Shown here piece by piece: positions 11,748 through 39,179 of a stretch of DNA of 52,805 nt. The translations under genes were made by a program, and so were the position numbers. The stretch is from a virus. Below the pieces are notes generated by a model. That model was given only the letters and a program-made list of their open reading frames with translations, was not told the origin of the DNA and ran no database searches. How positions within the stretch are numbered: position 1 is the stretch's first letter; the number at the start of each line of letters is the position of its first letter. The stretch is taken from positions 1-52,805 of the IMG/VR virus record IMGVR_UViG_3300034375_013195; one strand, 5' to 3'.

Positions 11748-11752
11748 AGTTA

Positions 11753-14970: not shown

Positions 14971-15022
14971 GACCCTTCTTAAATCAAAGCTGAAGAAACC
15001 TTCCAGAAGATCAGGGAGGCAA

Positions 15023-15054
15023 ACAAAAAAAGGCAGGAATGATTCCTGCCTTTC
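15023..15054. terminator. Bidirectional terminator between convergent genes
   Basis: AGGCAGGA and TCCTGCCT (15031-15038, 15044-15051) around ATGAT, preceded by an A7 run and followed by TTT. It ends the plus-strand cassette and the leftward tail operon. Confidence 0.8.
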
Positions 15055-15082
15055 GCCTTACTTTCTATTCAATCTTAAAGAA

Positions 15083-15364: not shown

Positions 15365-15389
15365 TTTGCTTTTTTTTGTATTGGGCAGC

Positions 15390-15414
15390 AAGTTAATTAC
15401 TTTTTAATTAACTT
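15390..15414. promoter_or_regulatory. Palindromic operator-like site with CTTTT loop
   Basis: AAGTTAATTA (15390-15399) and TAATTAACTT (15405-15414) are perfect arms around CTTTT. The site overlaps the end of the 84-residue gene and lies just upstream of the 93-residue gene. It shares its core with 13905-13923 and 31522-31541. Confidence 0.6.
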
Positions 15415-15658
15415 CCAAAAATTCAGCTTCAAAAAACTTCTTTGCATCATAAATTGAAGTGATTGATTTAAGCCCAAAATCTTCTGCTGCAAACTCTGCT
15501 GCTGTTGTTTTGGGTTGCCCTTCTTCAATGTAATCCAAATATTTTTGATAATAACAATATCTATCAACAACAGAAACAGGAATAATTCCTGCCTTCAGCA
15601 GCAAGGCAAAATCTGCCCTGTTCATTGCCTTTTTTAATATTTGGAATGCTGTAATCAT
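15404..15658 (-). CDS. Small hypothetical protein, 84 residues
   Basis: A helical protein (MITAFQILKKAMNRADFALLLKAGIIP) overlapping the tape-measure stop by ATGA, so it is translated with it. It is acidic at the end (KKFFEAEFLEVN). Unrecognised. Genes just after tape measures are often minor tail-tip proteins. Confidence 0.55.
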   Translation of the reverse strand: MITAFQILKKAMNRADFALLLKAGIIPVSVVDRYCYYQKYLDYIEEGQPKTTAAEFAAEDFGLKSITSIYDAKKFFEAEFLEVN

Positions 15659-18600: not shown

Positions 18601-19560
18601 TTCAATTGCATCTTCCCCAGCCTTCTCATAAGCCTTAAAAAGGGCTGTTGTTGCCTCTGATATTTCCCCAGCTTCCTGATTGAAAGCAGAGGCTGTTGCA
18701 GTTGTTGTTGCTGTCAGTTCTGTAAGGGCCTGCCCCTGTTCCCCTGAAAATTGCCTTACCTTCTCCCTTGTCTTATCAAGTTCAAGCCCGTAATTAGCAA
18801 CAGCAGCCCCAGCAGCAGCAATTCCTGCAACCCCAACAACAGCAAGCCCCCCTGCCCCCAGGGCTTTGAGTTGCCTGAAGGTATCTTTGAGCCCAGAAAG
18901 GGAGGAAGTAAACCTGCCAACAGGCCCAGGCATTTCATTGAAAGCCTGAACAATAGAATTTTTATAATTGCCTACGTTGCGGCTAAAAACCTGAATTCCC
19001 TGTTCTGCCTCATTGAGTTCATCAGTAATATCATTGATCTTCTTTTCTAAAAGATCAAAATCTTCCTGAGTGCCATCAATGCTTATTCTGAATTCAGACC
19101 ATTGCTTTTTAAGCCTTGAAAGTTCAACCCTTTGTTCTGATATGCTGCCAGGAACAGCCTGAAGTTCTTTTTGGGTAAGGTTGATTTCAGATCTGAGGCC
19201 CTTCAGATTGGATTCTGCAAGCTGAAGTTCTTCTGAATACTTATCAGCAGAAGCCCTTGCTTCTTTTTGCTTATCTGTAAGCTGGGCATATTCAGCAACA
19301 AGCCTTCCAATTTCCTGCCTGTTGCTTGCTTCATCCTTCCTTAATTGTGTAATTGCTGCCTTCAGCTTTGCTTTCTGGGCAATCAATTCCCTTTCAGCCT
19401 TCAGGGATTCCTGAAGCTGCTTCTTTGCAACCTTCCTTGCTTCTGTAAGCTTCTCCCTTGTCTGAATAAGCTGTTGCAGCCTCTTTTGCGATGCCTGGGA
19501 TCTTACAGCAACATCAGCATCATCAACAACAATTTCAAATATTAATTTTTCATTTTCCAT
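15655..19560 (-). CDS. Tape measure protein
   Basis: About 1,301 residues. The start is taken at 19560 (MENEKLIFEIVV), one base after the upstream stop; an earlier start would add 8 residues. The N-terminal third is a long coiled coil (AELRK/KLTEAR..., LRSEINLTQKELQ) with a hydrophobic transmembrane-like stretch near residues 245-265 (AGGLAVVGVAGIAAAGA), typical of siphophage tape measures. The middle (TDKTREKVRQFSG..., LSELPPLSSEVGTAIADIFGG) is helical with globular blocks. Hydrophobic segments later (AISYNFFIDLY-like) fit DNA-channel formation. At roughly 0.15 nm per residue the tail would be near 195 nm, so a siphovirus is inferred. It is embedded in the leftward tail operon with overlapping ends on both sides. 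Confidence 0.85.
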   Translation of the reverse strand: MENEKLIFEIVVDDADVAVRSQASQKRLQQLIQTREKLTEARKVAKKQLQESLKAERELIAQKAKLKAAITQLRKDEASNRQEIGRLVAEYAQLTDKQKEARASADKYSEELQLAESNLKGLRSEINLTQKELQAVPGSISEQRVELSRLKKQWSEFRISIDGTQEDFDLLEKKINDITDELNEAEQGIQVFSRNVGNYKNSIVQAFNEMPGPVGRFTSSLSGLKDTFRQLKALGAGGLAVVGVAGIAAAGAAVANYGLELDKTREKVRQFSGEQGQALTELTATTTATASAFNQEAGEISEATTALFKAYEKAGEDAIESQSAAGDIIRKTFAAGGDAAGELLELYKEYPSRLQEIGLSADQAAALIAQQPKTGVFSDKGIDVIQESLFRIREFTPATIDALEGIGLSSSEIQKSLEEGSTTAFEVVQKVSSKLSELPPLSSEVGTAIADIFGGPGEEAGLNYLTSLQNINLNLDELVENAGGAASANLRIAEATERINTQFLQLFEGSSNTFKELKASALEFAADGLEKIISGVVSLINYFIDLYNESALVRGAFEALGAIGKTVFTGLSAIIQNFFSIFKDIGKVVGAVLKGEFRSIPDIIKEGADERRQRAAEAGKEIAESWGNAFRNTVKREKVGLISLGADEVSEAEAKYKEAGKNLGKAFNEGFDSEQQGGGKATKKIEVDAVQNVSFSEISSAAIDLEQLAKDNNERLTQQKEYLTERLEQQKLFLEKERAEIELAEDLTAEERVQRATEVENQIRETRKQILELKLADLEEGSSEALEVELELIAIRKEAKDEEFASDKARIDESKKLEQERARLTQIGLRAVQNSTQGIIEAFGEQSAAGRAAIAVQKVAAAAEVGINLRSQISSAITAGAKISIKNPIAGAVYQAATIAAYTLQAGTLLAEIAGFNLGGLTDEEGSPLVINEKGEIKPASLTYEGRSVRKKKSFADGGKENAPTFALIGEKGPEYVVPAPVLKSPEGAELVGQLEEMRKKKVRAFESGGLTAPAASSIPISSPRVNKVYQRLLKVERSLQQQLQVQDMDSTRLQILQGLQESIQLTKQAVEGMEGRESSEALTSLQQASESIENISREVTAVTDSRVAELSFAAFASRDASSVEKATARNSPRFPQGIEGNESESFALRDASSVERESFFIDSLLAADPEARTIIESLKEATVQASMPEGIVSSPTIAPLSDSYVIPGALLTDPEAQKIIKTIEQIKDSAAPVDSTVIPFADGGFAGAVSGSTSVPIQVDSGTEVDNISEALASARFVVSVQDIIEETAFVVQVENDAAL

Positions 19561-19561
19561 C

Positions 19562-21583
19562 TTACACAATCTTTGTAAGAACAACCCTTGTAAAATCCTT
19601 TGCTCTAAATTGTTTTATCTGCTTGATTACCCAATAAAATCCCTGTAAATAAATAGGAACAATATCTTCAGCAGTTTTCTGATATTGCTCAATAACCTGG
19701 GAAACATCTGCTGCTGTAAGCTTCAGGTAAACTTCAATTTCAACAAAGTCTGAAAGGCTTTCCTTCAGTTCTTTCCAATATCGGGCTTCAAGGTCATTAT
19801 CCCAGGCAAGGCCCCCATTTGTAGCAGATGCAGATTCAAGGGCAAAATTAGCAACATAAGGGGTAATTACAGGGCCTGTTGCCCCCCCTGAAGGGGCATC
19901 TGTTAAAGTTATGCTGAAGCCTACATCTAAGGGATCAAGGATCAGCAGCCTGGGTTCCAATTCAACAGGCTTCAAATCTTCATCATATTTATCCAAAAAA
20001 GCGGAAACTTTGCCAGAAATAAGCCTTGATTCAGTTGCTGCAAAAACATTTGATGCAATATCCCCTGATTTATCAAGGGCTTCATTTTCAAGGGAGAAGG
20101 AACCATTCCCCAGGCCCTTCAAAACAGTTTCATCTTCAACCCATTCAAACCTTGATTCTTGAAAGAAGCCTGAAGGCCTTGTTTCCTTGCTGATATACCA
20201 AAAAGGTTGCCCTTCCTTTCTTACAAGCTTTGAATTCCAATCTATTGCCTGCCCCTTCCTTTTTACAATCTCTGAAAAAGGTTTCATTGTCCATCTTTTA
20301 CTAATAGGATCTGCAACAATATAAGAAGCTGTAATTGTTCCCAGGGTTCTCAGGAATTCAGATTGCTTGATTTCAGGAAGCTGATTTGCTACATCAACCC
20401 AACCTTCAGGGAAGATTTCTTCTTCAACTGATTGGGTATAAAACAAAGCATCTTCAATTGTTGCATCAACTTCAACTTCATCCCCTAAGGCAAGGGATTC
20501 AATTGCTGAAACAAAAGCAACCTGAATATCTTCCCCTTGAGAAGCCTGAACTTCAACTTCAATTTTATAGGTTCCCAAAGGCAGGGAGGCCCCTACCCCT
20601 ATCTGTTCTGAAGCTATTATTGCCCCATCTTTCAAGATGGCAATATAATGAACTGCTGAAGGGGGGTCTGCTGGGGGATTGTCAACAATTGAATAAGAAA
20701 AAGAAGCAACCCTGAATTCTGCATGATACAAGATCTTTGAAGCATTCGGTTCCTCAAAACCTGATGCAGAATAATTTGGGTTGCTTGTTGCCTCTGAAGC
20801 AATATCAATTGCTTGAATTTCATTGACATTTTCAAGGCTTCCTGAAGTATTTTCATAATCGAAATTTACAACAGTAATTATTCCCCCTGAATTTGCCCTG
20901 AAGGTATGTTCTTCAATGTAAGCTTCTCCATTCTTGAAAAGCTTATTAGTAAAAGGAATTATAAGATTTGTGAAAAAGGAATCAGCCCAGGCATTTGCTG
21001 CTGTATCAATTTGAAACCCCTGATCCTGAAGCATTAGGTTCAGCAAGTCATAAGCATACCATGAAGGGAACATAAAGTTATAATTCCATTCCCCCCCAGC
21101 AGCCAAAACAAGCTTGTAATTAATTGCAGCATAAAGGGGGGCATTATCCCCAGCAGCAGAAGCTGAATATTCTTCAACTTCTTCCATGTTCCAAAAATGA
21201 TTAAAGGCAGCAAGGCCTGAGATCTGAGGAAGCTTCAGGGTTTTTAGGACCTTAAATAAGGCTGATTCCCCAGAAAAAACAGTTGCTTGAATTTCATCTG
21301 TAATATCTTCAATCCTGAGAACCCCAGAAGGCACAATCTGAAAGCCTTGAATTTCATAAGAGCAAGGAAGAAGCTTGTAACAGGATTTTTCTTCTGAAGC
21401 AATTGCTTCAGGGTTCCCCAGCTTTTGAAGGTTCTGGGGGGTTGCTGGGATCTTCAGCTTACTTGAATAGTTAGATCTTTGAACAGTAACATCTGAAATA
21501 TCAATTCCATTGATTGTATATCCCCCAGGCTTCTGGGGATCAAGATCTATTTCAAAGCCATTTACAAACAATCTATCTTGCAT
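19562..21583 (-). CDS. Large tail/baseplate protein
   Basis: About 673 residues, starting with MQDRLFVNGFEIDLDPQKPGGYT. It overlaps the upstream stop (TGATG). The N-terminal region is beta-rich (INGIDISDVTVQRSNYSSKLKIPATPQ), followed by EIQGFQIVPSG. The middle is strand-rich, and the C-terminal third has a basic, extended region ending ARDFTRVVLTKIV. Position next to the tape measure and the size fit a distal-tail or baseplate hub. Compare element B, where no gene of this size lies in the tail cluster. Family not recognised. Confidence 0.55.
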   Translation of the reverse strand: MQDRLFVNGFEIDLDPQKPGGYTINGIDISDVTVQRSNYSSKLKIPATPQNLQKLGNPEAIASEEKSCYKLLPCSYEIQGFQIVPSGVLRIEDITDEIQATVFSGESALFKVLKTLKLPQISGLAAFNHFWNMEEVEEYSASAAGDNAPLYAAINYKLVLAAGGEWNYNFMFPSWYAYDLLNLMLQDQGFQIDTAANAWADSFFTNLIIPFTNKLFKNGEAYIEEHTFRANSGGIITVVNFDYENTSGSLENVNEIQAIDIASEATSNPNYSASGFEEPNASKILYHAEFRVASFSYSIVDNPPADPPSAVHYIAILKDGAIIASEQIGVGASLPLGTYKIEVEVQASQGEDIQVAFVSAIESLALGDEVEVDATIEDALFYTQSVEEEIFPEGWVDVANQLPEIKQSEFLRTLGTITASYIVADPISKRWTMKPFSEIVKRKGQAIDWNSKLVRKEGQPFWYISKETRPSGFFQESRFEWVEDETVLKGLGNGSFSLENEALDKSGDIASNVFAATESRLISGKVSAFLDKYDEDLKPVELEPRLLILDPLDVGFSITLTDAPSGGATGPVITPYVANFALESASATNGGLAWDNDLEARYWKELKESLSDFVEIEVYLKLTAADVSQVIEQYQKTAEDIVPIYLQGFYWVIKQIKQFRAKDFTRVVLTKIV

Positions 21584-22038
21584 CAAATGAACGGTTTTGG
21601 GGGTCTTTCAAAAGTAAGGGTAAAATCTGCAATAGGATGAAATTCAGCAACCTGAGATTCAACCCCTGTAATTATAATTTCAACATATTTGAAGCCCCCT
21701 GTATATCCTGAATCCTGGGTAATTTCCCAAACCTTTTCAGCGTGAATAAGGTAATTCAAAGCTTTTACTTCTTGATTTTCAAGGCCCTTTGCTGATACCT
21801 GAACAACCTCCTTGAATGAGCCCCTTGTTTTGGCGTAAATATTTGAAGCATCTTCATAATAATCAATTCCCTTCTTAAATACCTGGGGCTTCTCTGCTGC
21901 TGGGGTAAGAATAATTTCCCTGGGGAATACCCAGGAATCAAATCCCCCTTTTGAATTCTTCCATCTTATACAAACAGGGTTGCAGTTCTCAGGAAGCCTT
22001 GTATAAGATATTTCAATTTGATTGATGACTTCAGACAT
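21583..22038 (-). CDS. Tail-module protein, 151 residues
   Basis: A strand-rich protein (EVINQIEISYTRLPENCNPVCIRWKNSKGGFDSWVFPREI) with a C-terminal strand pair (VEIIITGVESQVAEFHPIADFTLTFERPP). It overlaps the next gene by TGATG. It could be a distal tail or receptor-tip component; unrecognised. Confidence 0.5.
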   Translation of the reverse strand: MSEVINQIEISYTRLPENCNPVCIRWKNSKGGFDSWVFPREIILTPAAEKPQVFKKGIDYYEDASNIYAKTRGSFKEVVQVSAKGLENQEVKALNYLIHAEKVWEITQDSGYTGGFKYVEIIITGVESQVAEFHPIADFTLTFERPPKPFI

Positions 22039-22049
22039 AATTCAAAATA

Positions 22050-23783
22050 TTAAGAGCCTCCACCCCCTGTTGTATAATTGACTGTTACCCCATTACCTGA
22101 AAGGCCTGCAAGGGCAGCAGTTACTGAAGGATTAATCAGATTGGGGCCTGCATTACTGCCATTAATATGAATTACCCTTCCTGTATATCCTGAACCAATC
22201 ATCCTATTCAGATCAATGATATAAGCATTAACTTCAGATTGATTCATTCCATTATCTGAAAGATCAATTACTGCTGAATTCTGATCTGCAATATTTGGAA
22301 AGGCTGTTGCAAGGTTGATATAGCCCAGGCTATTATTGGAAAGATCAAAGCTTGAAAAGGAATTTTGGTTGTTATTGGGGAATTGAACAGCCCCTGTTCC
22401 CAGGTTGCAATTGGAAAGGTTCAGGATTCCCTGAAGGCTTGTCCATTTGCTAATATTTACAGCAGCAAGGGTTCCATTCCCTGAAAGGTCTAATTCTGTT
22501 ACTGTTCTATCATTCCCCCCTTCAAAGGTTGTAATCTGATTATTTGAAAGCCTGTAAATAGGACAATTTACAAGGTTGCTTGCATCAAATCTTCCTGAAA
22601 TAACATCATCAACAAAATCAATTGCTGTAATTACAGAAGGATCAAGGTTAACAATTTCAACAGTTTGTTCTGTTCCATCAAGGCCATTTCCTGAAGTGCT
22701 TATTGAATTACCATTCATTATTGAGAGATCTTCAAAAAACCAGGTTGCAATTCCTGAAGAAGTGCTTATTGCAGGGTCAAAGGTTCCTGAAATAGGGTCA
22801 TAAGAAGTAAGGAAAGAAAAGGTTGAAGATCCTGTAATTGCAAACAGAATTGAATCTGTATTCTGCTGCTTTCCTGAGGGAAAAACAGGAACCTTAATAA
22901 CCTCAGTAAGATCTGAAACAGAAATTGCAATATCTGATGAATTCAATTCTGTTTTATTAATATCATATTCTTCCCCAGAAGCAAACAGATTATCAATCAA
23001 CCCATTAGGTACATACATGAAAGAAAGGCTGAAAGGCCATCCTTCAAAGATCCTGGGCTTCTCAAAGTCTGTAAGGAAGGCCCCCTGCTGAAGGCCTGGG
23101 GTTGCCCCTGCAAAGCCCAATTCTTCCCCCATATTTGCCCCCCTAATTCTGAAGATAGGATCAGCAGCAACAGCAAAGAAGTTATTTGAATTGATTCTTA
23201 CAGGGCTTGTTGTTGTTGTAAGGTATGTTTCCCCAATCTTAAAGTAAAAGGGAACCATTACAGCAAGATCATTTGCAGAATCCGCAAAATCAAAGCTTTC
23301 AACAAGCTCAAAATCTCTGAGAAAAGCAGAAGCATCAAATCTTATTACCCCTTTTGAATCAGGGGATCTTGATTCTGCTGCTATCTTTGAATCATCTCTT
23401 GCAGACAAATATTCAATATCTGCTTCATAATTATAATAAACTTCAACAAGGTTGATAAACTGTTCTGAAGGGGTAATTGCCACATAAGGAAGATCAAGAA
23501 CAACAACTGTATAAGTTGTTACTGTTGCAGATAAGATTTCAACATTGCCTTCAACAACTGTTGAAGATTGAACAGCTTTAAAGTAAACCTTTTGCCCTGC
23601 CTGAAAAAGGCTTGTATCTGTTGTTGCAATTCTTATCTCAATATTGCCCCCATTATTAGCATAATTAGTTGTATCAAAATCTTTTCTTTGAAAGGTGAAA
23701 ATCATGGGGGCAAGGGCTGAATTATGCCTGCTTATTGCGGTTCCTGTAAGCAGGGCAGCAGGGGTTGAAAGTTCTTGTATCAT
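22050..23783 (-). CDS. Tail protein with leucine-rich repeats
   Basis: A 577-residue protein. The first half is strand-rich and tail-like (FTFQRKDFDTTNYANNGGNIEIR; PFYFKIGETYLTTTTSPVRI). From about residue 370 the sequence turns into leucine-rich repeats: LSNNQITTFEG, VTELDLSGNGTLAAVNIS, LQGILNLSNCNLG, FSSFDLSNNSLGYINL, AVIDLSDNGMNQSEVNAYI. Each has the LxxLxLSxNxL pattern. It ends GVTVNYTTGGGGS, a flexible tip. LRRs bind proteins or sugars, so a receptor-binding role is inferred. It lies between the tail-completion genes and the 151-residue gene. Coding is almost free of CpG. Confidence 0.7.
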   Translation of the reverse strand: MIQELSTPAALLTGTAISRHNSALAPMIFTFQRKDFDTTNYANNGGNIEIRIATTDTSLFQAGQKVYFKAVQSSTVVEGNVEILSATVTTYTVVVLDLPYVAITPSEQFINLVEVYYNYEADIEYLSARDDSKIAAESRSPDSKGVIRFDASAFLRDFELVESFDFADSANDLAVMVPFYFKIGETYLTTTTSPVRINSNNFFAVAADPIFRIRGANMGEELGFAGATPGLQQGAFLTDFEKPRIFEGWPFSLSFMYVPNGLIDNLFASGEEYDINKTELNSSDIAISVSDLTEVIKVPVFPSGKQQNTDSILFAITGSSTFSFLTSYDPISGTFDPAISTSSGIATWFFEDLSIMNGNSISTSGNGLDGTEQTVEIVNLDPSVITAIDFVDDVISGRFDASNLVNCPIYRLSNNQITTFEGGNDRTVTELDLSGNGTLAAVNISKWTSLQGILNLSNCNLGTGAVQFPNNNQNSFSSFDLSNNSLGYINLATAFPNIADQNSAVIDLSDNGMNQSEVNAYIIDLNRMIGSGYTGRVIHINGSNAGPNLINPSVTAALAGLSGNGVTVNYTTGGGGS

Positions 23784-25557: not shown

Positions 25558-26952
25558 TTATGTTGCTTTTGCTTTTATTCTGCCTGATGGCTTCAATTCA
25601 AAATACATTCGCATGTGAAAGGCATCAGATATATCAGGTGATCTTCCCAAAATCAGCTTCAACTGTTCCTTCCCAATCACTTGCTTCCTTTTGTCTGTTC
25701 CTGGGTATTTCTCCCTGATATTCCCAATTTCCTCCTTAGCATCTGCAAGAAGGCCTTCATCATTACAAGGCCAATATACCAAATTTTGTCTTATTTTTTC
25801 TGCCAGCAGATAGCAACATTGGGTTTTTAAATTGGCATAAAATTTATTTGCAGGAATGTTTTTCCCCTGGGGGGTTTCGACTGTTCCCAAAGCAGCCCCC
25901 CCATTAACAAAGGCCTGAACTTTCAGGGAATCAACAGGCCCTGCCCCTACCCCATCTGAGTCAACAACAACCCTTCTTCTAGGTATATTGAACTTATTCA
26001 TTAAGAACTTCAGCCTTCTTGAAAATTCATCTAAGGGGGCCTTCTTAATCTTTTCAAGATGGATTACCTGAAGGCCCTGCCAAACAACTATTATTGAAGC
26101 ATCCCTGCCAAATCTTGCAACATCTGCTGAAATGTATCTTGTTGCCTTTGAATATTTAACTTCAAGAAATTCATTTGTAAACATATCAGAAAGGGCTTCC
26201 TGATCTACAATTGCAGAAGGATCTGAAGCATAATCCCAGGAACCGTTTACCCTTCTTTCATATTCTGTTGGATTGACTGTTCTTAGCTGTTCAAGGTTTT
26301 CAAGATATGCCTTAGGCACAAAAGGATTATCAGTAATTTTAGCAGGAATATACAACCAATCTTCAGGAAGCCTTCCCTTCAAATATCTTTCATAAATCAA
26401 GGATCTTACCCAATTATTTGCTGGGTTCAAGGTGCAAATTATCAAAGGTTTGGGCTGCTCTGCATTCTCCCCAGGTATAAAATAAGATCCAACCCTTTCA
26501 ATACATTTTGAAAAACCTTGAAGGGAAAGTTCTTCAATCTGATCTAAGAAGAAGTAATTCACTTCTAAACCATCAAATCTTTGGAGCTCCTTATCCTTAT
26601 CAATATTTTCCCCAAAGAAGAAAGCTTCAGAATCAAGCTCTGCCCCATATTGTTTACAATCTGCCTTCCAAACATACCTTGAAGCATTAATCAGCTTCAT
26701 GAAGTTAGAAGGAAAAACCTTTTTACAGGTAGGAAGGGTATTATCAACAAGCCTTTTGAAGTTTGCCCTTACAATTGCAAGCCTGCTGCCTGGGTATCTT
26801 CTTAGAAGAATTGTCTTAACTGCAAGCCCGTTGAAAGACTTGCCCCCCCTGATTGCACCCCCGTAAAATATTATTTTATACTTACCTGAAAGGGCTGCTT
26901 CAAGCAGTTCAATTGCCTTAGGGAAATTTGACCAATCAACAACATTTGCCAT
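25558..26952 (-). CDS. terL: Terminase large subunit
   Basis: A 464-residue packaging motor. The ATPase has a Walker A-like GGAIRGGKS (about residues 31-39) and a Walker B region VNYFFLDQIEEL (about 145-155). The C-terminal nuclease shows the expected acidic motifs ISADVARFGRDASIIVVWQG, RRVVVDSDGVGAG and SPDISDAFHMRMYF, matching a Terminase_6C-type RNase H fold. The length is normal for the family. It follows the small subunit by 4 bp and precedes the chaperone-like gene by 6 bp. The Walker A reading GGAIRGGKS instead of GxxxxGKS is a common terminase variant, so function is expected. Confidence 0.88.
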   Translation of the reverse strand: MANVVDWSNFPKAIELLEAALSGKYKIIFYGGAIRGGKSFNGLAVKTILLRRYPGSRLAIVRANFKRLVDNTLPTCKKVFPSNFMKLINASRYVWKADCKQYGAELDSEAFFFGENIDKDKELQRFDGLEVNYFFLDQIEELSLQGFSKCIERVGSYFIPGENAEQPKPLIICTLNPANNWVRSLIYERYLKGRLPEDWLYIPAKITDNPFVPKAYLENLEQLRTVNPTEYERRVNGSWDYASDPSAIVDQEALSDMFTNEFLEVKYSKATRYISADVARFGRDASIIVVWQGLQVIHLEKIKKAPLDEFSRRLKFLMNKFNIPRRRVVVDSDGVGAGPVDSLKVQAFVNGGAALGTVETPQGKNIPANKFYANLKTQCCYLLAEKIRQNLVYWPCNDEGLLADAKEEIGNIREKYPGTDKRKQVIGKEQLKLILGRSPDISDAFHMRMYFELKPSGRIKAKAT

Positions 26953-26955
26953 TGC

Positions 26956-27390
26956 TTAGAAGCTTAATTCAAGGCCCCCAGGAAGCTTAAAGGTTTGCCT
27001 TTCAAGCTGCTCCCCATTACTATCTATTTTTTCAATTACTGTTGCAGGCCTTCCTTCAGCCCTATCATAAATTTCTTTGATTGCTGAGAAGGCTGTTTTT
27101 GGGTCATCTCCTAAGGCCATCATTACAAGCCTTAGATTAATTGCTTCCTGAAGTCTTACCTTTTTCCCGTTGAATCTGTCTGGGAAGATCTGCTGAAGCC
27201 TTCTCAATACAGCATTAGTTGAAGCATCAATTTCTTCAGCAAGTACTGCCCTTAATATTGTTTTCAGGTTCTTAGAACCTGGGGGCCTACCTGCTGGGTT
27301 GCCTGATTCCCCAGGTTTGAATTGGGTTTCTTCTGGGGGCCTTTTGTAACCTACCTTTTTTTTCTTCTTGTTTTCTTCTTTGCTTTTCAT
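26956..27390 (-). CDS. terS: Terminase small subunit-like protein (DUF5681)
   Basis: A 144-residue protein. A basic, disordered N-terminus precedes the DUF5681 core: KRPPEETQFKPGESGNPAGRPPGSKN, then a helical segment (LKTILRAVLAEEI) and a C-terminal tail with EGRPATVIEKIDSNGEQL. Genes of this family lie directly upstream of large terminases in many phages, where they bind the packaging site. Here it precedes terL by 4 bp. A tandem pair of 11-bp repeats just upstream may be its binding or control site. Confidence 0.75.
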   Translation of the reverse strand: MKSKEENKKKKKVGYKRPPEETQFKPGESGNPAGRPPGSKNLKTILRAVLAEEIDASTNAVLRRLQQIFPDRFNGKKVRLQEAINLRLVMMALGDDPKTAFSAIKEIYDRAEGRPATVIEKIDSNGEQLERQTFKLPGGLELSF

Positions 27391-27513: not shown

Positions 27514-27777
27514 CTATTCAGAAGGCCCCTTTTCTACTACCTTTATTTTTTTTGAAGCCCAAATTGAAGCAAAGGTTGCCCCAATAGAAAGCAAGATTGT
27601 AATCACATAAGCAGGGCTTCCCCAGGTAAACAAAGAACTTGCAATTGCAATTCCTGCCCCAATAAAGAAAAACCCCATCAGGCCCCAGGCAAACATTAGA
27701 GCAGCAGAGCCATATTCAGCAATCAAATCCCAAAGGGATTTTTCATCATTAAGATTCTTGAATTGTTGTTCGTTCAT
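27514..27777 (-). CDS. Small two-TM membrane protein
   Basis: An 87-residue protein with two clear hydrophobic helices (about residues 22-43, AALMFAWGLMGFFFIGAGIAIA, and 50-73, PAYVITILLSIGATFASIWA), then a short polar tail (KVVEKGPSE). Two-helix phage membrane proteins include holins. Nothing else supports that here. It starts the operon with MNEQQFKNLNDEKSLWD. Confidence 0.5.
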   Translation of the reverse strand: MNEQQFKNLNDEKSLWDLIAEYGSAALMFAWGLMGFFFIGAGIAIASSLFTWGSPAYVITILLSIGATFASIWASKKIKVVEKGPSE

Positions 27778-27793: not shown

Positions 27794-28249
27794 TTAAAAA
27801 TGCAATAATAATTCCAAATTTAAAACAATGTTAGGAATTAATTCATTTGGTTCTGTTTGTATCATCCAATAAGCAACCCCAACAATTCCTGCTGCCTTAA
27901 TCAGAATATTCATCTGCCAGCTACCCCCCAACCTATCAAAAGGGCTGTTGTTATCTTGCAAGCTGGGATCTTGCCAAAGCTGAGGCTTCCCAGCATAAAC
28001 AGGAAGCAGAATATCAAAGGAAGCCCAGAATATAAAGTTTTGAAAAAGGAATACCCTTGTTACCTCTGATAGATAACAAGGGCCTTGTTCCTTTAATGTT
28101 ACGTAAAATGCAGAAAATAAAAAGAATATGAAAAGCCTGATGATTGCCCAAGCTGTTTTTTCTTGTTTGCTTATCCAATCCCCTGCCTTCCATTTCTCCC
28201 CATGAATGAAAACTTGCAGAATCAAAAAAAATAATATGGGGAATATCAT
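27794..28249 (-). CDS. Membrane protein with about four TM helices
   Basis: A 151-residue protein with hydrophobic segments near residues 1-15 (MIFPILFFLILQVFI), 30-50 (AWAIIRLFIFFLFSAFYVTL), 65-82 (RVFLFQNFIFWASFDILLPVY) and 110-130 (ILIKAAGIVGVAYWMIQ). Unrecognised. The group of small membrane genes (27514-28452) could be involved in lysis or superinfection control. Confidence 0.55.
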   Translation of the reverse strand: MIFPILFFLILQVFIHGEKWKAGDWISKQEKTAWAIIRLFIFFLFSAFYVTLKEQGPCYLSEVTRVFLFQNFIFWASFDILLPVYAGKPQLWQDPSLQDNNSPFDRLGGSWQMNILIKAAGIVGVAYWMIQTEPNELIPNIVLNLELLLHF

Positions 28250-28452: not shown

Positions 28453-28513
28453 TGTCTATAAATTACGGTTCAATATAGCATTAAACGAATTAAAATTCAA
28501 TTAGTTTTAAATT

Positions 28514-28550
28514 AAAAAGGCTTCCCCTTGAGAGTTGGGGAAGCCTTTTT
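28514..28550. terminator. Strong bidirectional terminator
   Basis: AAAAAGGCTTCCCC and GGGGAAGCCTTTTT (28514-28527, 28537-28550) form a perfect 14-bp stem around a 9-nt loop, with A and T runs at the ends. It ends leftward transcription from the zinc-ribbon gene. Confidence 0.9.
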
Positions 28551-28579
28551 CAACCTCTAATTTCTTTTTTCATGAATTG

Positions 28580-28759
28580 CTAATTTAGCAGAATTTTCCT
28601 TTGTCCGCAAGGGCAAAGGCCTCCCTGAACCTGATTCCTTACATGAATTGTTTTTTTGCATCCATACCTTGAACATAAAACAGGAACAGGGGCCTGGGGC
28701 TTCAGAATATTAACTGAAGGAAGATTGATTGTTCGTTCTTTGCTTTTCTGGGTTGCCAT
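28580..28759 (-). CDS. 59-residue Cys-rich zinc-ribbon-like protein
   Basis: An ATG at 28759 starts MATQKSKERTINLPSVN and ends GGLCPCGQRKILLN, with four cysteines: C-x4-C (CSRYGC) and C-x-C (CPC). The spacing fits a small zinc ribbon, as in phage transcription or DNA-associated proteins. The N-terminus is polar. It follows the T9SS protein stop by 2 bp, so it may be co-expressed. Gene choice rests on a full-length open frame and an element-typical start. Function not assignable. Confidence 0.55.
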   Translation of the reverse strand: MATQKSKERTINLPSVNILKPQAPVPVLCSRYGCKKTIHVRNQVQGGLCPCGQRKILLN

Positions 28760-28761: not shown

Positions 28762-29940
28762 TTAGAGCTTAATGAAATGTTTAGTTGTATAAATGAAATC
28801 AAGCCCCTTTAGCCTGAGGACAAAAACCCCAGAAGGCAAAGATGAAAGATCAACCTTATTTGCCCCCCTATTGCTACCAACAGCAACAACAGCCCCTTTC
28901 ATGTTTATAACTTCAAAGGCCTCCACTTCAAAAGGGGCTTCAAAGTATAATTGGCTTCCTGCTGGATTGGGATATAAAAGAACCTGATCTGCCTGGGGGC
29001 CTGCAAGCCTGGGGGCAGATGGCTGAACAGTAATAAAGAAATCCTGAAGCTTTCCTGCACAATTCCCAGCATAAGGAATTACACGAATTTTAGCAGTAAG
29101 ATCTGATCCTGAAGAATTGCTTGCAATGAATGATAAATTCCCAAGCCCTATTTCAGGCCCAATTCCTATTTCAGGATTATTGAAGGAAGCATGATCTGCC
29201 CAAATTATGAAGCTTGTTTCAGGGTCGGGGCTGCTGAAGGCAATGCTTACTGCATCCCCTGCTGTTACTGTATCATTAGGGATTGAATCCAATGATACAA
29301 AAGGGGCTGTTGAAAATACTTCTTCCAATGTATCAGAACAAGATTGAAAGCCTTCATTGATTCCTATTATTTGATAATTGTTTGAACCTGGGGAAGGGGC
29401 ATCAATGAAATAGGAAACAGGATTGCCTTTTGTGGCCTCCACATTCCCCAGGCAATTGCCATTTCTTGAAAATAGATAATTATCAGCAACCTTTCTTGAA
29501 TCTGAAAGGCCTGAAGCAAGATCAAAGGAAGCCCCTGAACAAAAGGTTCCTGAAGGGAATGTTGCAGAAATGTTTGGGCTCTTTCTTACTCTTACTTTTA
29601 CCTTCCTTGCAGGGCCTGCTGTTCCATCAAATTGAGCAACCCAATAAAAGGAAGTAGAAGGGGAAGCCATTGAAGGCAAAACAGGCTGCTCCCCTGTTCC
29701 GTTGAAAAGGGCTCCTTTGCTGCCTGAGTTATCTTCATACCAAACAAGGGAATTCCCTGGGATAAATGCAGAGTTCATTTCAACAACTTCATTCATATCT
29801 GCTGGGGCTGTTTCCCCTTGACAATAAAATATACTGATCTGATTGCAGGAATTACAATTCTGGGGCACAAGTTTTGGATTTGCAGCAAAGGCAATCAAGC
29901 CCCAGGCAAAAACCGACATAAAGAGAAAAAGGTTTTTCAT
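28762..29940 (-). CDS. Secreted protein with T9SS C-terminal sorting domain
   Basis: A 392-residue protein with a signal peptide (MKNLFLFMSVFAWGLIAFA) and a Cys-rich start of the mature part (NCNSCNQISIFYCQG). The middle has beta-rich, adhesin-like repeats (WYEDNSGSKGALFNGTGEQP, FWVAQFDGTAGPARKVKVRV). Residues ~320-392 are a type A T9SS sorting domain: VLLYPNPAGSQLYF, VINMKGAVV, LPSGVFVLRLKG and the terminal KHFIKL. Such domains direct Bacteroidota proteins across the outer membrane to the cell surface. In a phage it would alter the infected or lysogenic host's surface, for example receptor masking, adhesion or exclusion (inference). It lies in the accessory membrane-gene block. The host must therefore carry T9SS if this is functional. 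Confidence 0.75.
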   Translation of the reverse strand: MKNLFLFMSVFAWGLIAFAANPKLVPQNCNSCNQISIFYCQGETAPADMNEVVEMNSAFIPGNSLVWYEDNSGSKGALFNGTGEQPVLPSMASPSTSFYWVAQFDGTAGPARKVKVRVRKSPNISATFPSGTFCSGASFDLASGLSDSRKVADNYLFSRNGNCLGNVEATKGNPVSYFIDAPSPGSNNYQIIGINEGFQSCSDTLEEVFSTAPFVSLDSIPNDTVTAGDAVSIAFSSPDPETSFIIWADHASFNNPEIGIGPEIGLGNLSFIASNSSGSDLTAKIRVIPYAGNCAGKLQDFFITVQPSAPRLAGPQADQVLLYPNPAGSQLYFEAPFEVEAFEVINMKGAVVAVGSNRGANKVDLSSLPSGVFVLRLKGLDFIYTTKHFIKL

Positions 29941-29961: not shown

Positions 29962-30147
29962 TTACAGATTATTTTTTGAAGGGCTGCTTTTAGATTCCTG
30001 ATCTGCCAAAACAAGCAGGGCCTGCCCTACCCCTTCCAACAGCAGCAGGGCCTTCCTTATTGCCTCTGCATATTCAAGATCAGAAGCAACATCAAAATCA
30101 ATTACTATTCCCTTGTATAAGGGGGCAGGGTTCTTTTCTAAGGGCAT
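29962..30147 (-). CDS. Small protein, 61 residues
   Basis: MPLEKNPAPLYKGIVIDFDVASDLEYAEAIRKALLLLEGV then QALLVLADQESKSSPSKNNL. Unrecognised, soluble, short alpha/beta. It overlaps the upstream gene by 10 bp, so both are probably translated together, just upstream of the T9SS protein. Confidence 0.5.
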   Translation of the reverse strand: MPLEKNPAPLYKGIVIDFDVASDLEYAEAIRKALLLLEGVGQALLVLADQESKSSPSKNNL

Positions 30148-30296
30148 ATTTTTGAACCGTTATAAGGACTAACAAAACATACTTCAATTATTCCTGAGGC
30201 CATCAGCAGCCCCAGAACAACAACAAAAACAAAAAAGGCAATAAGATACATTCCCAGCCCCTTGAAAGGGATCTTTGAAAATAGATGTTTAAACAT
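30138..30296 (-). CDS. Small single-pass membrane protein, 52 residues
   Basis: The start is taken at 30296 (MFKHLFSKIPFKGLG), which overlaps the stop of the membrane-HTH gene. A hydrophobic helix (MYLIAFFVFVVVLGLLMAS) precedes a short end with Cys residues (CFVSPYNGSKIC), perhaps disulfide-linked outside. Unrecognised. Confidence 0.55.
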   Translation of the reverse strand: MFKHLFSKIPFKGLGMYLIAFFVFVVVLGLLMASGIIEVCFVSPYNGSKICP

Positions 30297-31482
30297 ATTG
30301 TTTAACCTTTTTACGAACATTCTTAACTGTTCCCTGTGAAATATTGTAATCTTTTGAAAGGGTTGTAATTGAAGCCCCTTTCAGATAATCCTGAACAACC
30401 CCCTTATAAGTTTGAAAATAAGTAAGATCTTTTGCCTGCTGAGGGTTCTGGGTATCTATTCCAGCAACAAGATCAGAAAAAGAAATTACCTGGGCTGCTG
30501 CTGGGGCAGGGGTTTGCCTGGGCATATTTTTTGCCCGAGGGCCTGGGGCATTTTGCCCTGTTTTTTCATTTTCAAGAAGATCTTTTGCCTGGGTAGGGGA
30601 GGGGATTGCCCCAAGCTTTATTTCAAGAAAAGTATAATACAGATATTGCCTTCTTGAAAAGATCAGTATTAAAATCATTGCCTCAACTATTGAAGAAAAT
30701 ATCAAAGCAATAGTTGAATAATAATCTGTATCAATTGAAGCTGCTGCCTGAAGTTTTGAATTGTCTGTTCTTGCATTCTGCTTATCAAGTGCCTTCAAAT
30801 CAATCAGCTTATCAATTCGCTTTTCTTTTGTTGCAATGGTTTTTCTTGTAATCCAGGATCTTTCATATTTACCCCCAGAAAAAACCAAATTAGCAGGATC
30901 TTTTTTCAGGGCTTCAATATTCTTTTTTTCCTGTTTTATCAGTTCATCATAACCCCCAGCAATAGAAGCTTCATCTTTTAGGGCCTCAGGATCAACGGAT
31001 GAACGCATTTCAGCAAGATCAACTGCCCCGTTAACTGAAGAACCTATTGAAACCCCCATTAATACCACTATAAAGAACATTGGTCCAATTAATACCTTCC
31101 TTGATTTTAGGAAGGTATCAGAAAAAACATTTCCTAATGCAACCTTCCCTGCTTCCACTATTACAAGAATTGATGCTGTTATAAGCATTCCAGCAATAAG
31201 CAGGAAGATCTGAGCATTTGAGCTAAAATCTATTTCTTCAAGGGGAATTCCTGAAATCATCTTCAACACGTAGCCAAAAACAAACAGCCCTGCAAAGGCA
31301 ATGCTTAAAACATGGAGAAGATGAAGGGAAGCATTACTGATTGAATAAAGGGGCTTTCTTTGCTCAGCATAAGTCTTTTCCTTGAATTCATTGAAAGACT
31401 TATCAACAACAATCTGAAGCCTTTCCTGCTTCAGAGCCCCTTTCAGGGGCTTTTTACGGGGGGTTAATTTTTTTTTCTTCAT
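30289..31482 (-). CDS. Four-TM membrane protein with C-terminal HTH
   Basis: A 397-residue protein. A basic N-terminus (MKKKKLTPRKKPLKG) is followed by TM helices at about 52-77, 90-112, 130-153 and 253-276. A charged loop of about 100 residues between TM3 and TM4 contains coiled-coil-like heptads (IKQEKKNIEALKK, KRIDKLIDLKAL). After TM4 comes a Pro/Ala-rich linker (about 300-345) and then a helix-turn-helix: YLKGASITTLSKDYNISQGTVKNVRKKVKQYV. Membrane-tethered HTH proteins exist (ToxR/CadC types), but their architecture differs. Here the HTH is C-terminal. A membrane-linked regulator or partition-like role is possible. Not recognised. It heads a leftward operon. Confidence 0.65.
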   Translation of the reverse strand: MKKKKLTPRKKPLKGALKQERLQIVVDKSFNEFKEKTYAEQRKPLYSISNASLHLLHVLSIAFAGLFVFGYVLKMISGIPLEEIDFSSNAQIFLLIAGMLITASILVIVEAGKVALGNVFSDTFLKSRKVLIGPMFFIVVLMGVSIGSSVNGAVDLAEMRSSVDPEALKDEASIAGGYDELIKQEKKNIEALKKDPANLVFSGGKYERSWITRKTIATKEKRIDKLIDLKALDKQNARTDNSKLQAAASIDTDYYSTIALIFSSIVEAMILILIFSRRQYLYYTFLEIKLGAIPSPTQAKDLLENEKTGQNAPGPRAKNMPRQTPAPAAAQVISFSDLVAGIDTQNPQQAKDLTYFQTYKGVVQDYLKGASITTLSKDYNISQGTVKNVRKKVKQYV

Positions 31483-31569: not shown

Positions 31570-31609
31570 AAGAAAAAGCCTGGGGCAGGCCTTTCAGCAT
31601 ACCCCAGGC
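31570..31609 (-). terminator. Terminator after the 157-residue gene
   Basis: GCCTGGGG (31578-31585) pairs with CCCCAGGC (31602-31609) around a 16-nt loop, followed on the minus strand by TTTTTCTTT. Confidence 0.75.
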
Positions 31610-31663
31610 AAGAAAATCAAATAGGATATAACAAGTTTCTTCCAACCTGTTATGCTTAAAAAT

Positions 31664-32506: not shown

Positions 32507-32539
32507 GATTTCCGTTTTGTTTTAATTGGTTGGCAAGGT

Positions 32540-32779
32540 TTAAGCCTTTGTTCTTTTTACCACCCCTCCCCAAAATTTTTCAAACTCATAAAATGGAGGA
32601 AGGTTTTTTGTGGTCGCTATTTTGTTGAATAGCAAAATATCATCATGAATAATTTCTTCATGATCATCCCATCCTTGGTCATCTGCTGGATGGATAGAGG
32701 GGTTTGCCTTTTGATTTATTATTGATAAGCCAATAAAGTGTAATGTTCTTTTTACTTCTGTTTCGGTGAAATTTTTCAT
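32540..32779 (-). CDS. 79-residue protein, full copy
   Basis: MKNFTETEVKRTLHFIGLS, an acidic middle (DDQGWDDHEEIIHDDI) and a C-terminal half (LPPFYEFEKFWGGVVKRTKA). Family not recognised. It is the gene present, in part, at window start, and its promoter/leader and first 52 codons form the repeat. Only its upstream neighbours differ. This makes it the joint between elements A and B. Confidence 0.65.
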   Translation of the reverse strand: MKNFTETEVKRTLHFIGLSIINQKANPSIHPADDQGWDDHEEIIHDDILLFNKIATTKNLPPFYEFEKFWGGVVKRTKA

Positions 32780-32813
32780 GATTTTTAGTTTGTAGTGTTA
32801 TTAAAATAGGAAG
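32624..32813. repeat. Direct repeat, right copy
   Basis: Matches 1-190 with five mismatches in a six-base block; the first 126 bases are identical. It covers part of the 79-residue gene and its leader. Confidence 0.95.
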
Positions 32814-32816
32814 CCC

Positions 32817-33002
32817 TTACGAGCTTTTAGTTTCTAAATATCTTTTTATTGCTTGCTGAATAACTGCGATAGCATTGATGCCATGTGCGTAGCTACCATC
32901 ACCCTTTTTGTAGTTGATGAAACAATGAAGCTGCATATCTTCCAGCCTGACTATTTCAACCTTATTTTGCTCACAGAAATTTGTAATTTCTTTTAGTGTC
33001 AT
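32817..33002 (-). CDS. Small protein, 61 residues
   Basis: MTLKEITNFCEQNKVEIVRLED, then HCFINYKKGDGSYAHGINAIAVIQQAIKRYLE. The start at 33002 gives 61 residues; the frame stays open upstream to 33110 but overlaps the next gene. Strand-helix pattern, unrecognised. Confidence 0.55.
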   Translation of the reverse strand: MTLKEITNFCEQNKVEIVRLEDMQLHCFINYKKGDGSYAHGINAIAVIQQAIKRYLETKSS

Positions 33003-33021
33003 TGTTCTGTTTTTAGGAAGG

Positions 33022-33936
33022 TTAAAAAATAGAAAGTTGCTGATTGTCGTATTCTGTTGAATCCTGGCGAAATATCTCGTTTTCGGTTTCGCTTTTTTCT
33101 GATAGGTCATTTATGCCACAAAACCCGTTGCAATCAATTAGCGGCTTTGGGGGCTTATTAATCCCCTTCATATCAAACAGGCATTTGTGATTTGGATAAT
33201 TTGGATTAGGAAGTAAAAACACATTCCACATACCTGACTGCTTTGCCGCTTTTGATTGGTCTTTATTTATGGTAACTGGCTTCCCTTTTAGTTCAGATAT
33301 TTTATGCTCAATAATCCCCATTATTAAGTAACCCCAAGGATTGATTTTAGAGAATAAATACCAATAGGAAAGTCCACCTTGAACACAACCTGTCTGCAAA
33401 CAATTATTGTTGTGTAAACCTAATTTATAGGCTACGGGAATTTCTATTCCTGCATCCTCAACAAACTTTATGCAATCGGGCTTATCGTACCCGTACATCA
33501 AAAGAGGGTAAATAGCTTTCGCGTCTGGATAATTCAGAGACATTCCCGAAGCTCGATTAAATTCTTTTTTACCAAATTCATACCCAAATACCTGGTAATC
33601 ATAATTGTTTTCTTTCTGCCATTGCTTGCGAACGGCCCGTTTTAATTCACTAGAACAAATAGCGCCAAAGGCAAAATTCATTCCTTGGAATTTATACCAG
33701 ACATCAACAATGCTATCATATTTGGGGTTCCAAATCCTTTCGATTTTTACCCCATACCATTTTTCGCAATCTTTCAGAAATCTGTAAGTATCTTTATGTT
33801 CGTTTTTTGTGTCAATCATTATTACACGAACATTCTCTTTGCCAAATAGCTTGATTGCTAAATAGCAAGCAACCGCTGATGTAATACCACCAGACCACCA
33901 ACAAACAACAACCGTTTTATTTATACATTTAGTCAT
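33022..33936 (-). CDS. PAPS reductase-like PP-loop enzyme
   Basis: A 304-residue protein of the adenine-nucleotide alpha-hydrolase superfamily. The PP-loop motif SGGITS is at residues 15-20, and the FLKDCEKWYGVKIERIW and AICSSELKRAVRKQWQ segments match the PAPS-reductase/DndC-like group. Cysteines cluster later (NNCLQTGCVQGG, DCNGFCGIND) and could hold an iron-sulfur cluster, as in DndC. It may reduce a sulfur-adenylate or feed a DNA/tRNA modification; phage members of this family are usually unassigned. A methyltransferase occupies the equivalent upstream position in the other repeat copy, so the two genes look like alternative cassettes. CpG content is ordinary. Confidence 0.75.
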   Translation of the reverse strand: MTKCINKTVVVCWWSGGITSAVACYLAIKLFGKENVRVIMIDTKNEHKDTYRFLKDCEKWYGVKIERIWNPKYDSIVDVWYKFQGMNFAFGAICSSELKRAVRKQWQKENNYDYQVFGYEFGKKEFNRASGMSLNYPDAKAIYPLLMYGYDKPDCIKFVEDAGIEIPVAYKLGLHNNNCLQTGCVQGGLSYWYLFSKINPWGYLIMGIIEHKISELKGKPVTINKDQSKAAKQSGMWNVFLLPNPNYPNHKCLFDMKGINKPPKPLIDCNGFCGINDLSEKSETENEIFRQDSTEYDNQQLSIF

Positions 33937-33970
33937 AGTGTGTTACTTTTAGTCAAGGTTATTATTTGAG

Positions 33971-34192
33971 TTATTCATTTTCAAATACTAACATTTTCTC
34001 AAATGGATTAGGTAGCTCGCTTATCTCCGAATTATCGGCAGCGTCACGAAGTTGGCAGGGGATCCCAAAATCTTTGTCAGTAAGGATAAACCCCATACCA
34101 TCATGCCCAATTTCAAGGCCAATATCCTCTAAAAAATCTTCAAGCTTTTTAAGTTTCTTCGCTAGTGTGTGCGTTGGTAGTAGTCTTTTCAT
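33971..34192 (-). CDS. Small protein, 73 residues
   Basis: MKRLLPTHTLAKKLKKLEDFLED then GMGFILTDKDFGIPCQLRDAADNSE. A basic helix, then a mixed region with a Cys, acidic end. Unrecognised. It lies upstream of the PAPS reductase-like gene. Confidence 0.5.
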   Translation of the reverse strand: MKRLLPTHTLAKKLKKLEDFLEDIGLEIGHDGMGFILTDKDFGIPCQLRDAADNSEISELPNPFEKMLVFENE

Positions 34193-34229
34193 AGTGTTTT
34201 GTTTTAATTCCTAATGCAAGGTTGAAAAA

Positions 34230-36221: not shown

Positions 36222-36833
36222 TCATGATCTATAAAAAATATTGATGTAAAGTATATCATCCACCGCAGGAGTTACACCGCTTGGTGGATAGTATTGAATT
36301 GTACCGTCAGTGTTTATCTTAATCGTGGCAATATGGTAAGTGCCAGCGCTATCGTCATAGTAGCTGATAGGCTTAATAACCGCCCCCGAAGGTCTTCGAG
36401 CTGGTGGTATAGGGTCGATATCAACGATCGTATTGCCGGTATACCCTGTCGAATTAGTTAGCGCTTGACTAATTAACATTAACTCCCCATCAAAAAAGTA
36501 GACAATAGCCGCAGCGCTCCAATCTGCCGAGCTGTCAAACGTCCCGGCGATGAAATTCACATTAGATCCGCTTATCGCATCATCGACGTACTTCTTGGTA
36601 GCCGCATCGTAATTACTGGTCGGTGTTGCAAGTCCTGTAATCTTATTACTTCCTGCTGCTAGGCTAGTAGTCATTGGGTTAGTAACCCCGCCCCCTGTCC
36701 ACTCCGTGATAGTCCCATCATTGTCATACCATATTTTAGGGGGGGTTACATTCATCTGCCATGCGTATGTACACCCTGAAGGGATGCTTACTGGCTTCCT
36801 GTCTACCTTATATATTTTCTCGTATTCTGCCAT
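36222..36833 (-). CDS. Tail fibre protein, 203 residues
   Basis: The N-terminal ~50 residues (MAEYEKIYKVDRKPVSIPSGCTYAWQMN, then KIWYDNDGTITEWTGGG) are almost identical to those of the gene at 38559-39179. The C-terminal part differs, with a NYDAATKKYVDDAISGS segment common in phage fibre (chaperone-like) proteins and strand-rich end parts. Identical N-terminus and different C-terminus is the mark of fibres anchored the same way but binding different receptors. A second reading frame part continues past its TGA stop. Confidence 0.65.
   Translation of the reverse strand: MAEYEKIYKVDRKPVSIPSGCTYAWQMNVTPPKIWYDNDGTITEWTGGGVTNPMTTSLAAGSNKITGLATPTSNYDAATKKYVDDAISGSNVNFIAGTFDSSADWSAAAIVYFFDGELMLISQALTNSTGYTGNTIVDIDPIPPARRPSGAVIKPISYYDDSAGTYHIATIKINTDGTIQYYPPSGVTPAVDDILYINIFYRS
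36688..36833. repeat. Repeated fibre N-terminus, copy 1
   Basis: This 146-bp stretch matches 39034-39179 with only a few mismatches; it encodes the shared fibre N-terminus. Confidence 0.9.
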
Positions 36834-37013: not shown

Positions 37014-38111
37014 CTAAAATATGGAGGTTTTAGCGGTAAAGGTGTCTGCCGTTGGCTGTGCTTCTTCGCTTCCTACGGTGTAGAATGTTGATGGGGAGTT
37101 TTGGTTATTGTAATCAGTAACAATATAGTCGTCGCTTAATAATGCGTCAAAAACCCGAAACTCATCAAGTTTAATATCCGCATACCTCGGATTCCCATTC
37201 GCACCATCCCTGCCTTTAAACATTGAGTTAGTAAAAGAGGTTATTCCGTGTGTGTAGCCTACTGTACCACTGCTCACCCCATCCTTATAACATTCCAAGG
37301 TTGAAGTGTCATCATGTTTTAATACAATATGATGCCAATTTGTATCCGTAATAGTTGGTCCTAACGGCACGTTCCTCCAGCCCCCCGAATAGCAATTAAA
37401 AACTAACTCTGCATTGCTGCCAGAAGACCCGTTATCCAACATCATAGACCATTGTTGTTTGTCTCCCCCGGCACTATTCCTTTTTGAAAAAATAAATTCG
37501 GCAGAAGACAGTGTGCTACTATTATTCCTTTTTAACCAAAAGCTAAAAGTAAAGTCTCCCGTCAGGTTGTTAAGAACACTAACGTCTGTGCCTGAATTGA
37601 AGTAATCATTTGTCCCATCAAAATCAGAGCCATTGCCAGATAATGCCCCCTCAACACTTGTTGGGCCAGTCCTGGTCAAGCTTATGCCATTGGATGACGA
37701 ATCTACAATATTTCCGCTTGTTTCTTCATGATGCCACGCTCCAATCACATTATCAGTCCACACATTTTCGCTTCCATAGGTATCTGTTGCAGCATAAGCA
37801 CTAGCACTAGGATTACCGTAGTAAATCTTAAAACTTGTGTCAGAACTAGATGATAAGAAATTAGCCTTAAAATGTAGCTCCCCCGTTTTGGCGCTTGTGT
37901 CAATCGCTACTATCTCAAAAGCACATTCTGTAGTCCCGTCTGCCCTGGTAATCCTGATGTCTGCCCCTGCACTATCTACATTTGTGAAGAAGCTTTCAGG
38001 CATCTCAGATAGATCTACATAAACAGGGAAGTCAGATACATCTCCATTTACTTGAGTATTATCTACTGTGATCTCTACCCTATAGTCCCAGTCTGTGTCA
38101 TACCAACTCAT
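37014..38111 (-). CDS. LamG/DUF2341 tail adhesin
   Basis: A 365-residue protein. Residues ~1-110 match DUF2341 (WYDTDWDYRVEITVDNTQ, then FPVYVDLSEMP, then FKIYYGNPSAS), and residues ~130-345 a laminin-G/concanavalin A-like jelly roll (AWHHEETSGNIVDSSSNG, FDGTNDYFNSG, DFTFSFWLKRN, NWHHIVLKHD). Such domains bind sugars on cell surfaces. In this tail cluster it is probably a receptor-binding or accessory adhesin. It overlaps the upstream gene (TAATG). Confidence 0.75.
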   Translation of the reverse strand: MSWYDTDWDYRVEITVDNTQVNGDVSDFPVYVDLSEMPESFFTNVDSAGADIRITRADGTTECAFEIVAIDTSAKTGELHFKANFLSSSSDTSFKIYYGNPSASAYAATDTYGSENVWTDNVIGAWHHEETSGNIVDSSSNGISLTRTGPTSVEGALSGNGSDFDGTNDYFNSGTDVSVLNNLTGDFTFSFWLKRNNSSTLSSAEFIFSKRNSAGGDKQQWSMMLDNGSSGSNAELVFNCYSGGWRNVPLGPTITDTNWHHIVLKHDDTSTLECYKDGVSSGTVGYTHGITSFTNSMFKGRDGANGNPRYADIKLDEFRVFDALLSDDYIVTDYNNQNSPSTFYTVGSEEAQPTADTFTAKTSIF

Positions 38112-38558: not shown

Positions 38559-39179
38559 TTATTCGAAAATTAAGTTAACTATTAAGCCCTTTGGGGTTGT
38601 GGTAAAAGTTGAAGCACCTATCTGTAGCTCTAGTCTATCATTTGTGACTACATCATCTGCCGCTGTATTGATTGAGCCTGTAGATGAGTCTATTCCTCCT
38701 GCTGCTATAGTCAAGTTTGCAGAGAGCATATTTGCGGTGTCTGTTCTATTGTATAGCATCGCGTTGGTGCTGTCTCCTGCTCCTGCTACATCATGATGGT
38801 ACGTGATTTCTATCAAATCCATGCCTGTAAAAAGGGAAGGAATAGGCCCTATTTTGTAATCAGTAGAGACAGTGATGTCTGTTGCTGCATCAACAAGTCT
38901 CACCATCAACCCTTTTTGTTTGGTGATAGCAGGCAGTTCTGCAACGGGAACAAGTGCCGATCCATCTAGGGAAGCATATCCAGATGCTGCGCTTTTTTCA
39001 GATAGAAGCTGATATGTGCCTGGTGCAACTCCCCCGCCCCCTGTCCACTCCGTGATAGTCCCATCATTGTCATACCATATCTTAGGAGGGGTTACATTCA
39101 TCTGCCATGCGTATGTACACCCTGAAGGGATGCTCGCTGGCTTCCTGTCTACCTTATATATTTTCTCGTATTCTGCCAT
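38559..39179 (-). CDS. Second tail fibre with shared N-terminus
   Basis: About 206 residues; the start is taken at 39179 (MAEYEKIYKVDRKPASIPSG), because the codon further upstream is TTG. It carries the same N-terminal ~50 residues as the gene at 36222-36833, then its own C-terminal region (STDYKIGPIPSLFTGMDLIEITY..., DRLELQIGASTFTT). The start overlaps the upstream stop (TGATG). Confidence 0.65.
   Translation of the reverse strand: MAEYEKIYKVDRKPASIPSGCTYAWQMNVTPPKIWYDNDGTITEWTGGGGVAPGTYQLLSEKSAASGYASLDGSALVPVAELPAITKQKGLMVRLVDAATDITVSTDYKIGPIPSLFTGMDLIEITYHHDVAGAGDSTNAMLYNRTDTANMLSANLTIAAGGIDSSTGSINTAADDVVTNDRLELQIGASTFTTTPKGLIVNLIFE
39034..39179. repeat. Repeated fibre N-terminus, copy 2
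   Basis: Matches 36688-36833 and includes the ATG and 145 bases of coding sequence. Confidence 0.9.

Follow-up and report, generated by a model that had tools for sequence, protein, structure and literature searches.

The gene at positions 28762 to 29940 (minus strand) of the window, that is, of the whole 52,805-nt stretch of DNA that was analysed, is phage DNA and encodes a 392-aa protein with an ATG start, a predicted signal peptide, a passenger and a type A T9SS C-terminal sorting domain (CTD). Taking the explanation as a whole, we consider it reasonably probable that this protein is a host-T9SS cargo encoded by a small tailed Bacteroidota phage, and that it is displayed on the surface and alters the cell exterior, with receptor occlusion as the favoured role. 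The open reading frame call was backed by profile matches and by an orthologue at L025:1151-2314, on a contig from another metagenome; this orthologous gene occupies the same place there, which excludes a chance occurrence of the architecture. The pairing of a signal peptide with a type A sorting domain had been put forward in the initial annotation, and both elements were borne out, the leader by rule-based assignment and the CTD by scores above curated cut-offs.

The signal peptide (residues 1-19, MKNLFLFMSVFAWGLIAFA; 29884 to 29940, minus strand) was assigned by rule from sequence and hydrophobicity. The N-terminus, MKNLFLFMSVFAWGLIAFA followed by AN, has a charged start, a hydrophobic core and an AxA-type site, and among the genes examined in the phage that carries it, the left-hand one of two described below, only this gene combined a strongly hydrophobic N-terminus with the absence of a later membrane segment. 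The orthologue begins with a likewise hydrophobic N-terminus (MKKIISLFLLLSAFALTFA); since a Cys lies close to the point of cleavage there (TFAC), a lipoprotein is a less likely alternative for the orthologue.

The CTD (residues 322-391, YPNP ... VDLSSLPSGVFVL ... FIKL; 28768 to 28977, minus strand) was subjected to the profile search that the initial annotation had recommended, and both families recognised it: TIGR04183 scored 39.2 bits (E 5e-10, residues 322-391/392; 42.7 bits in a second run) against a curated cut-off of 23 bits, and PF18962 scored 30.6 bits against a cut-off of 27 bits. The CTD of the orthologue reached 48.9 bits with TIGR04183, and a profile built from the two orthologues matched chain 8glk_D, a solved CTD, and the sorting domain of the lipase 7pzj_A, each with an E value of 0.001. 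A search of the whole window returned no second T9SS tail, and a generic CTD query found no match among the viral contigs.

The window consists of two phages joined at approximately position 32,530, a feature not seen in the initial annotation. The joint spans 32530 to 32813, with the right-hand phage starting at 32530 and positions 32624-32813 repeating window positions 1-190 at 97% identity. CpG o/e was 0.148 to the left of the joint, 0.834 to its right and 0.077 in the cargo gene, and two head-protease/capsid sets were present (12751-13842 with 11753-12682, and 41552-42778 with 42796-43938). An independent contig (L008) matched window positions 32530-34204 at 99.94% and then continued into different DNA; another (L005) was identical to positions 6930-22682 and backs the left phage over that stretch. 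The simplest reading is that the assembler joined two phages through a short shared stretch, and the left phage is probably circular, with a length of about 32.6 kb. Because the record is chimeric, whole-record statistics and completeness estimates are unsafe. The cargo gene lies in the left phage, 2.6 kb clear of the joint.

The relatives of the left phage point to a Bacteroidota host, as far as homology can indicate: its capsid protein (MCP) had relatives only among Bacteroides, Cellulophaga or unnamed phages, and the best-covered named relatives of its terminase large subunit (TerL; 25558 to 26952, minus strand; PF04466 at 26.6 bits, phrog_2 at 1e-21) were phages of Flavobacterium, Cellulophaga, Polaribacter and Bacteroides. 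TerL gave no match among the genome contigs. None of the genes scanned was recognised as an integrase, and this was counted against our preferred explanation; lysogeny is the setting in which exclusion pays most. Within the virion gene cluster, a 156-aa gene (7797-8267, minus strand) carries a PAS-fold domain (PF08447, 45 bits), which is unusual for a phage. CpG o/e was 0.15 over positions 1-32500 and 0.52-0.58 in the related contigs L025, L002 and L006, which share the low TpA of the left phage. Does the CpG depletion of the left phage reflect a recent shift of host or of a CpG-directed pressure?

Five closely spaced genes run from 31482 to 28580 on the minus strand, and the cargo gene is number four among them. 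The first (30289 to 31482; partial counterpart L025:2-739) encodes a membrane protein of 397 aa whose C-terminal part weakly matches an HTH, the second (30138 to 30320; counterpart L025:739-906) a 60-aa membrane protein, and the third (29962 to 30147) a 61-aa product that is 47% identical to that of L025:903-1085. The last gene (28580 to 28759) starts 2 nt past the cargo stop codon and encodes a 59-aa, zinc-ribbon-like protein with the pattern C-x4-C-x14-C-x-C, all four Cys being conserved in its orthologue (L025:2318-2512); the Cys-rich small gene noted earlier behind the cargo was thus found as described. An intrinsic terminator hairpin followed by a U-run closes the unit (28513 to 28552, minus strand; -24.4 kcal/mol, z -4.3), and a second, followed by T5, lies upstream of its first gene (31570 to 31610, minus strand; -25.1 kcal/mol, z -4.4). 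Since terminator hairpins are predicted at both ends, the unit is probably transcribed separately from the packaging genes. The cargo gene lies 1.4 kb upstream of TerL and of the gene before it (26956 to 27390, minus strand), which is taken by position as the terminase small subunit (TerS) and is 72% identical to L025:3670-4116. Promoter scans performed no better than chance. The intergenic stretch at 28460-28505 (minus strand), which precedes the small genes lying upstream of TerS, is well conserved with L025 and contains a sigma-70-like match, making it a candidate promoter for the packaging genes.

The second phage was found by a terminase alignment scan. Its 5.1-kb contig, L025, contains in order a membrane-HTH protein, a 55-aa membrane protein, a 60-aa protein, the T9SS cargo (387 aa), the four-Cys gene, three small genes, TerS and TerL, and this gene order up to TerS/TerL is the same as in the window. 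Over a 2,093-bp overlap, L025 was 99.95% identical to a contig from a third metagenome (L002), which places this phage in two samples. Linkage to TerS/TerL in two phages, together with the CpG composition, establishes that the cargo gene is phage DNA. When the two phages were compared, TerL was 82% identical and the cargo proteins 62% identical at the amino acid level, with 69% in the passenger, 78% in its last third and 35% in the CTD. The corresponding pN/pS values were 0.33 for the passenger and 0.60 for the CTD, both of which overstate the true ratios because synonymous changes are near saturation. By this measure the passenger is under purifying selection. In the CTD, YPNP, the D-S-L-G positions and the final IKL were kept between orthologues and the remainder drifts; a domain that is only 35% identical and still scores as a T9SS signal fits a sorting tag that needs only its motifs. 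The orthologue, the shared gene order and the selection comparison together indicate that the cargo gene is an inherited part of the phage lineage and not a fresh host capture.

The passenger itself (residues 20-312; 29005 to 29883, minus strand) matched no recognised domain in Pfam, NCBIfam or PHROGs. Its Ig/PKD-like look is an impression by eye only; Ig_7 (PF19081) and PKD_5 (PF19406) had been suggested in this way, and neither matched. AlphaFold models from one sequence (pLDDT 37) and from two sequences (pLDDT 36) were too poor for a fold search; at this low confidence they predict an all-beta cargo. Scans with the full-length cargo found no relative in viral contigs, genome contigs or named phages, and matches on Persicobacter plasmids were set aside, as they covered mainly the CTD.

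Two features, a Sec signal peptide and a conserved CTD, define T9SS substrates (PMC12618676), and type A cargo is described as covalently anchored to anionic LPS (PMC9143113). In the proposed sequence of events, the cargo would be made during infection from its own transcription unit and would cross the inner membrane by Sec, losing its signal peptide. The host T9SS would then carry it through the outer membrane on the type A CTD, which would be removed as the passenger becomes either anchored on the surface or set free. Because two phages retain both sorting signals, it is a straightforward inference that the host T9SS exports the protein, and, on the basis of family knowledge, we regard export and surface attachment as highly probable. 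The earlier proposal that the phage uses the surface-secretion route of its host (Sec, then T9SS, then the surface) is therefore supported, as far as sorting signals in two diverged phages and a firm phage context can support it.

Once displayed, the passenger would most likely alter what the cell presents outside, and the virus thus probably redecorates the surface of the infected cell. In Flavobacterium columnare, T9SS/gliding genes are a main site of phage-resistance mutations (PMC9233685), and in Cellulophaga, T9SS-exported adhesins may act as phage receptors (PMC13288928). These two observations make the covering of, or competition for, receptors attractive: the passenger may occlude phage receptors and so cause superinfection exclusion. 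Superinfection exclusion or receptor masking is accordingly our leading putative role, held tentatively. The more specific proposal, that the gene is a dedicated core gene and not a passing moron, encoding an exclusion protein displayed by the T9SS, the same export system that delivers phage receptors, is more doubtful still.

The export evidence also fits a T9SS-exported surface protein that is carried as a moron and benefits the host, or the spread of the phage, by other means: during infection or in lysogeny it might adhere to surfaces or other cells, bind matrix or capture nutrients. This is the main rival, and known examples lend it weight, since enzymes and a PA14 protein make up the cargo of Cryophage (PMC7468147) and that of phage immuto has a cohesin, so that substrates, and not phages, would be the targets. 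No enzyme or binding domain was recognised in the present cargo, however, and a passenger identity of 69% with a constant position next to the packaging genes would suit a core phage function better; we therefore judge this rival unlikely. A role in lysis or release at the outer membrane, in partnership with neighbouring holin-like membrane genes, would draw on two membrane genes 0.5-1.2 kb downstream of the cargo (27514-27777, weakly holin-like, and 27794-28249) and on the small membrane proteins of the cargo unit itself. It appears improbable, because a strong terminator separates the unit from these genes, the resemblance to holins is weak (15 bits, the cut-off being 28), and the passenger, being extracellular, would not be on the side where a spanin-like protein acts.

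The presence of structural genes nearby and the low-confidence all-beta prediction would also be compatible with a virion protein bearing Ig-like domains on the head or tail, the CTD match then being a misleading Ig-like fold. This is very improbable in view of the signal peptides in both orthologues, the scores of both CTDs above T9SS cut-offs despite 35% identity, and the location of the gene in a separate transcription unit. That the gene might be host chromosomal DNA, a doubt which the initial annotation had itself raised, or an artefact of assembly that ended up next to phage genes, gains some colour from the window being truly chimeric. The joint is nevertheless 2.6 kb away and the CpG composition of the cargo gene fits the left phage, not the right one; the orthologue in the same gene order, on an independent contig that overlaps L002 at 99.95%, refutes this reading, which we consider practically untenable. 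The region is phage and its CTD has profile support, and host-T9SS cargo of the phage remains the preferred reading.

Phage-encoded T9SS cargo are known and rare, and the present gene is not the first case: the literature searched contained one published report, on Cryophage, in which three T9SS-tagged cargo genes were described and a hijack of the host system, with possible superinfection exclusion, was proposed in 2020 (Bellas et al. 2020, PMC7468147). Both phages encode proteins with a T9SS type A sorting domain. The Cryophage passengers comprise an endoglucanase, a GH39 enzyme and a PA14 protein, and they differ strongly from one phage variant to another, whereas the present cargo has a single passenger without recognised domains at a fixed place and, in the two lineages sampled, is the same orthologue in the left phage and in L025. 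In comparison with Bacteroidota T9SS type A cargo in general (TIGR04183 / PF18962; 8glk_D, 7pzj_A), the order of signal peptide, passenger and CTD with the family motifs is shared, and the difference is that the present gene is phage-encoded.

Among 16 named Bacteroidota phage genomes scanned, a T9SS tail was detected in one, the isolated Flavobacterium phage immuto (MW353176), suggesting that few isolates have the trait, within the limits of this small, hand-picked sample. The immuto protein (QQO91933.1; TIGR04183 45.4 bits, PF18962 36.7 bits) resembles the present cargo in its hydrophobic N-terminal leader and T9SS tail, but its passenger is a cohesin unrelated in sequence, and it is encoded by a 160-kb phage with a C-type lectin gene near. 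Its record carries no T9SS cargo annotation, an example of how annotation overlooks such genes. Three further 'phage' records with CTD matches (MT836089, MT836839 and MT839268) were rejected as unverified faecal scaffolds, and MT836089 was not counted as a phage case because host genes of the gliding/T9SS type lie on it (by eye, PorP/SprF- and GldJ-like). This scaffold (L003, MT836089.1), labelled 'Bacteriophage sp.' in GenBank, reads as host chromosome, and the label looks wrong.

What is new here is a conserved passenger, a fixed operon and evidence of selection. One passenger, fixed in two diverged phages and selected, provides a clean further case that can be cloned and tested. If the cargo blocks phages, it would represent exclusion routed through the T9SS, in a phylum where phage receptors are frequently linked to that system; if it does not, it would still show that phages can redecorate Bacteroidota cells.

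Further observations concern the two phages of the chimera. A 79-aa gene (32540-32779, minus strand) is nearly identical in both, which suggests recent exchange and a shared host range. In the right phage, a phosphoadenosine phosphosulfate reductase-like gene was found at 33022-33936 (minus strand; phrog_424, 3e-46), and a 148-bp direct repeat (97%) occurs at 36686-36833 and 39032-39179, near tail-fibre-like genes. The gene between these repeats (37014-38111) carries Laminin_G_3 and DUF2341 domains.
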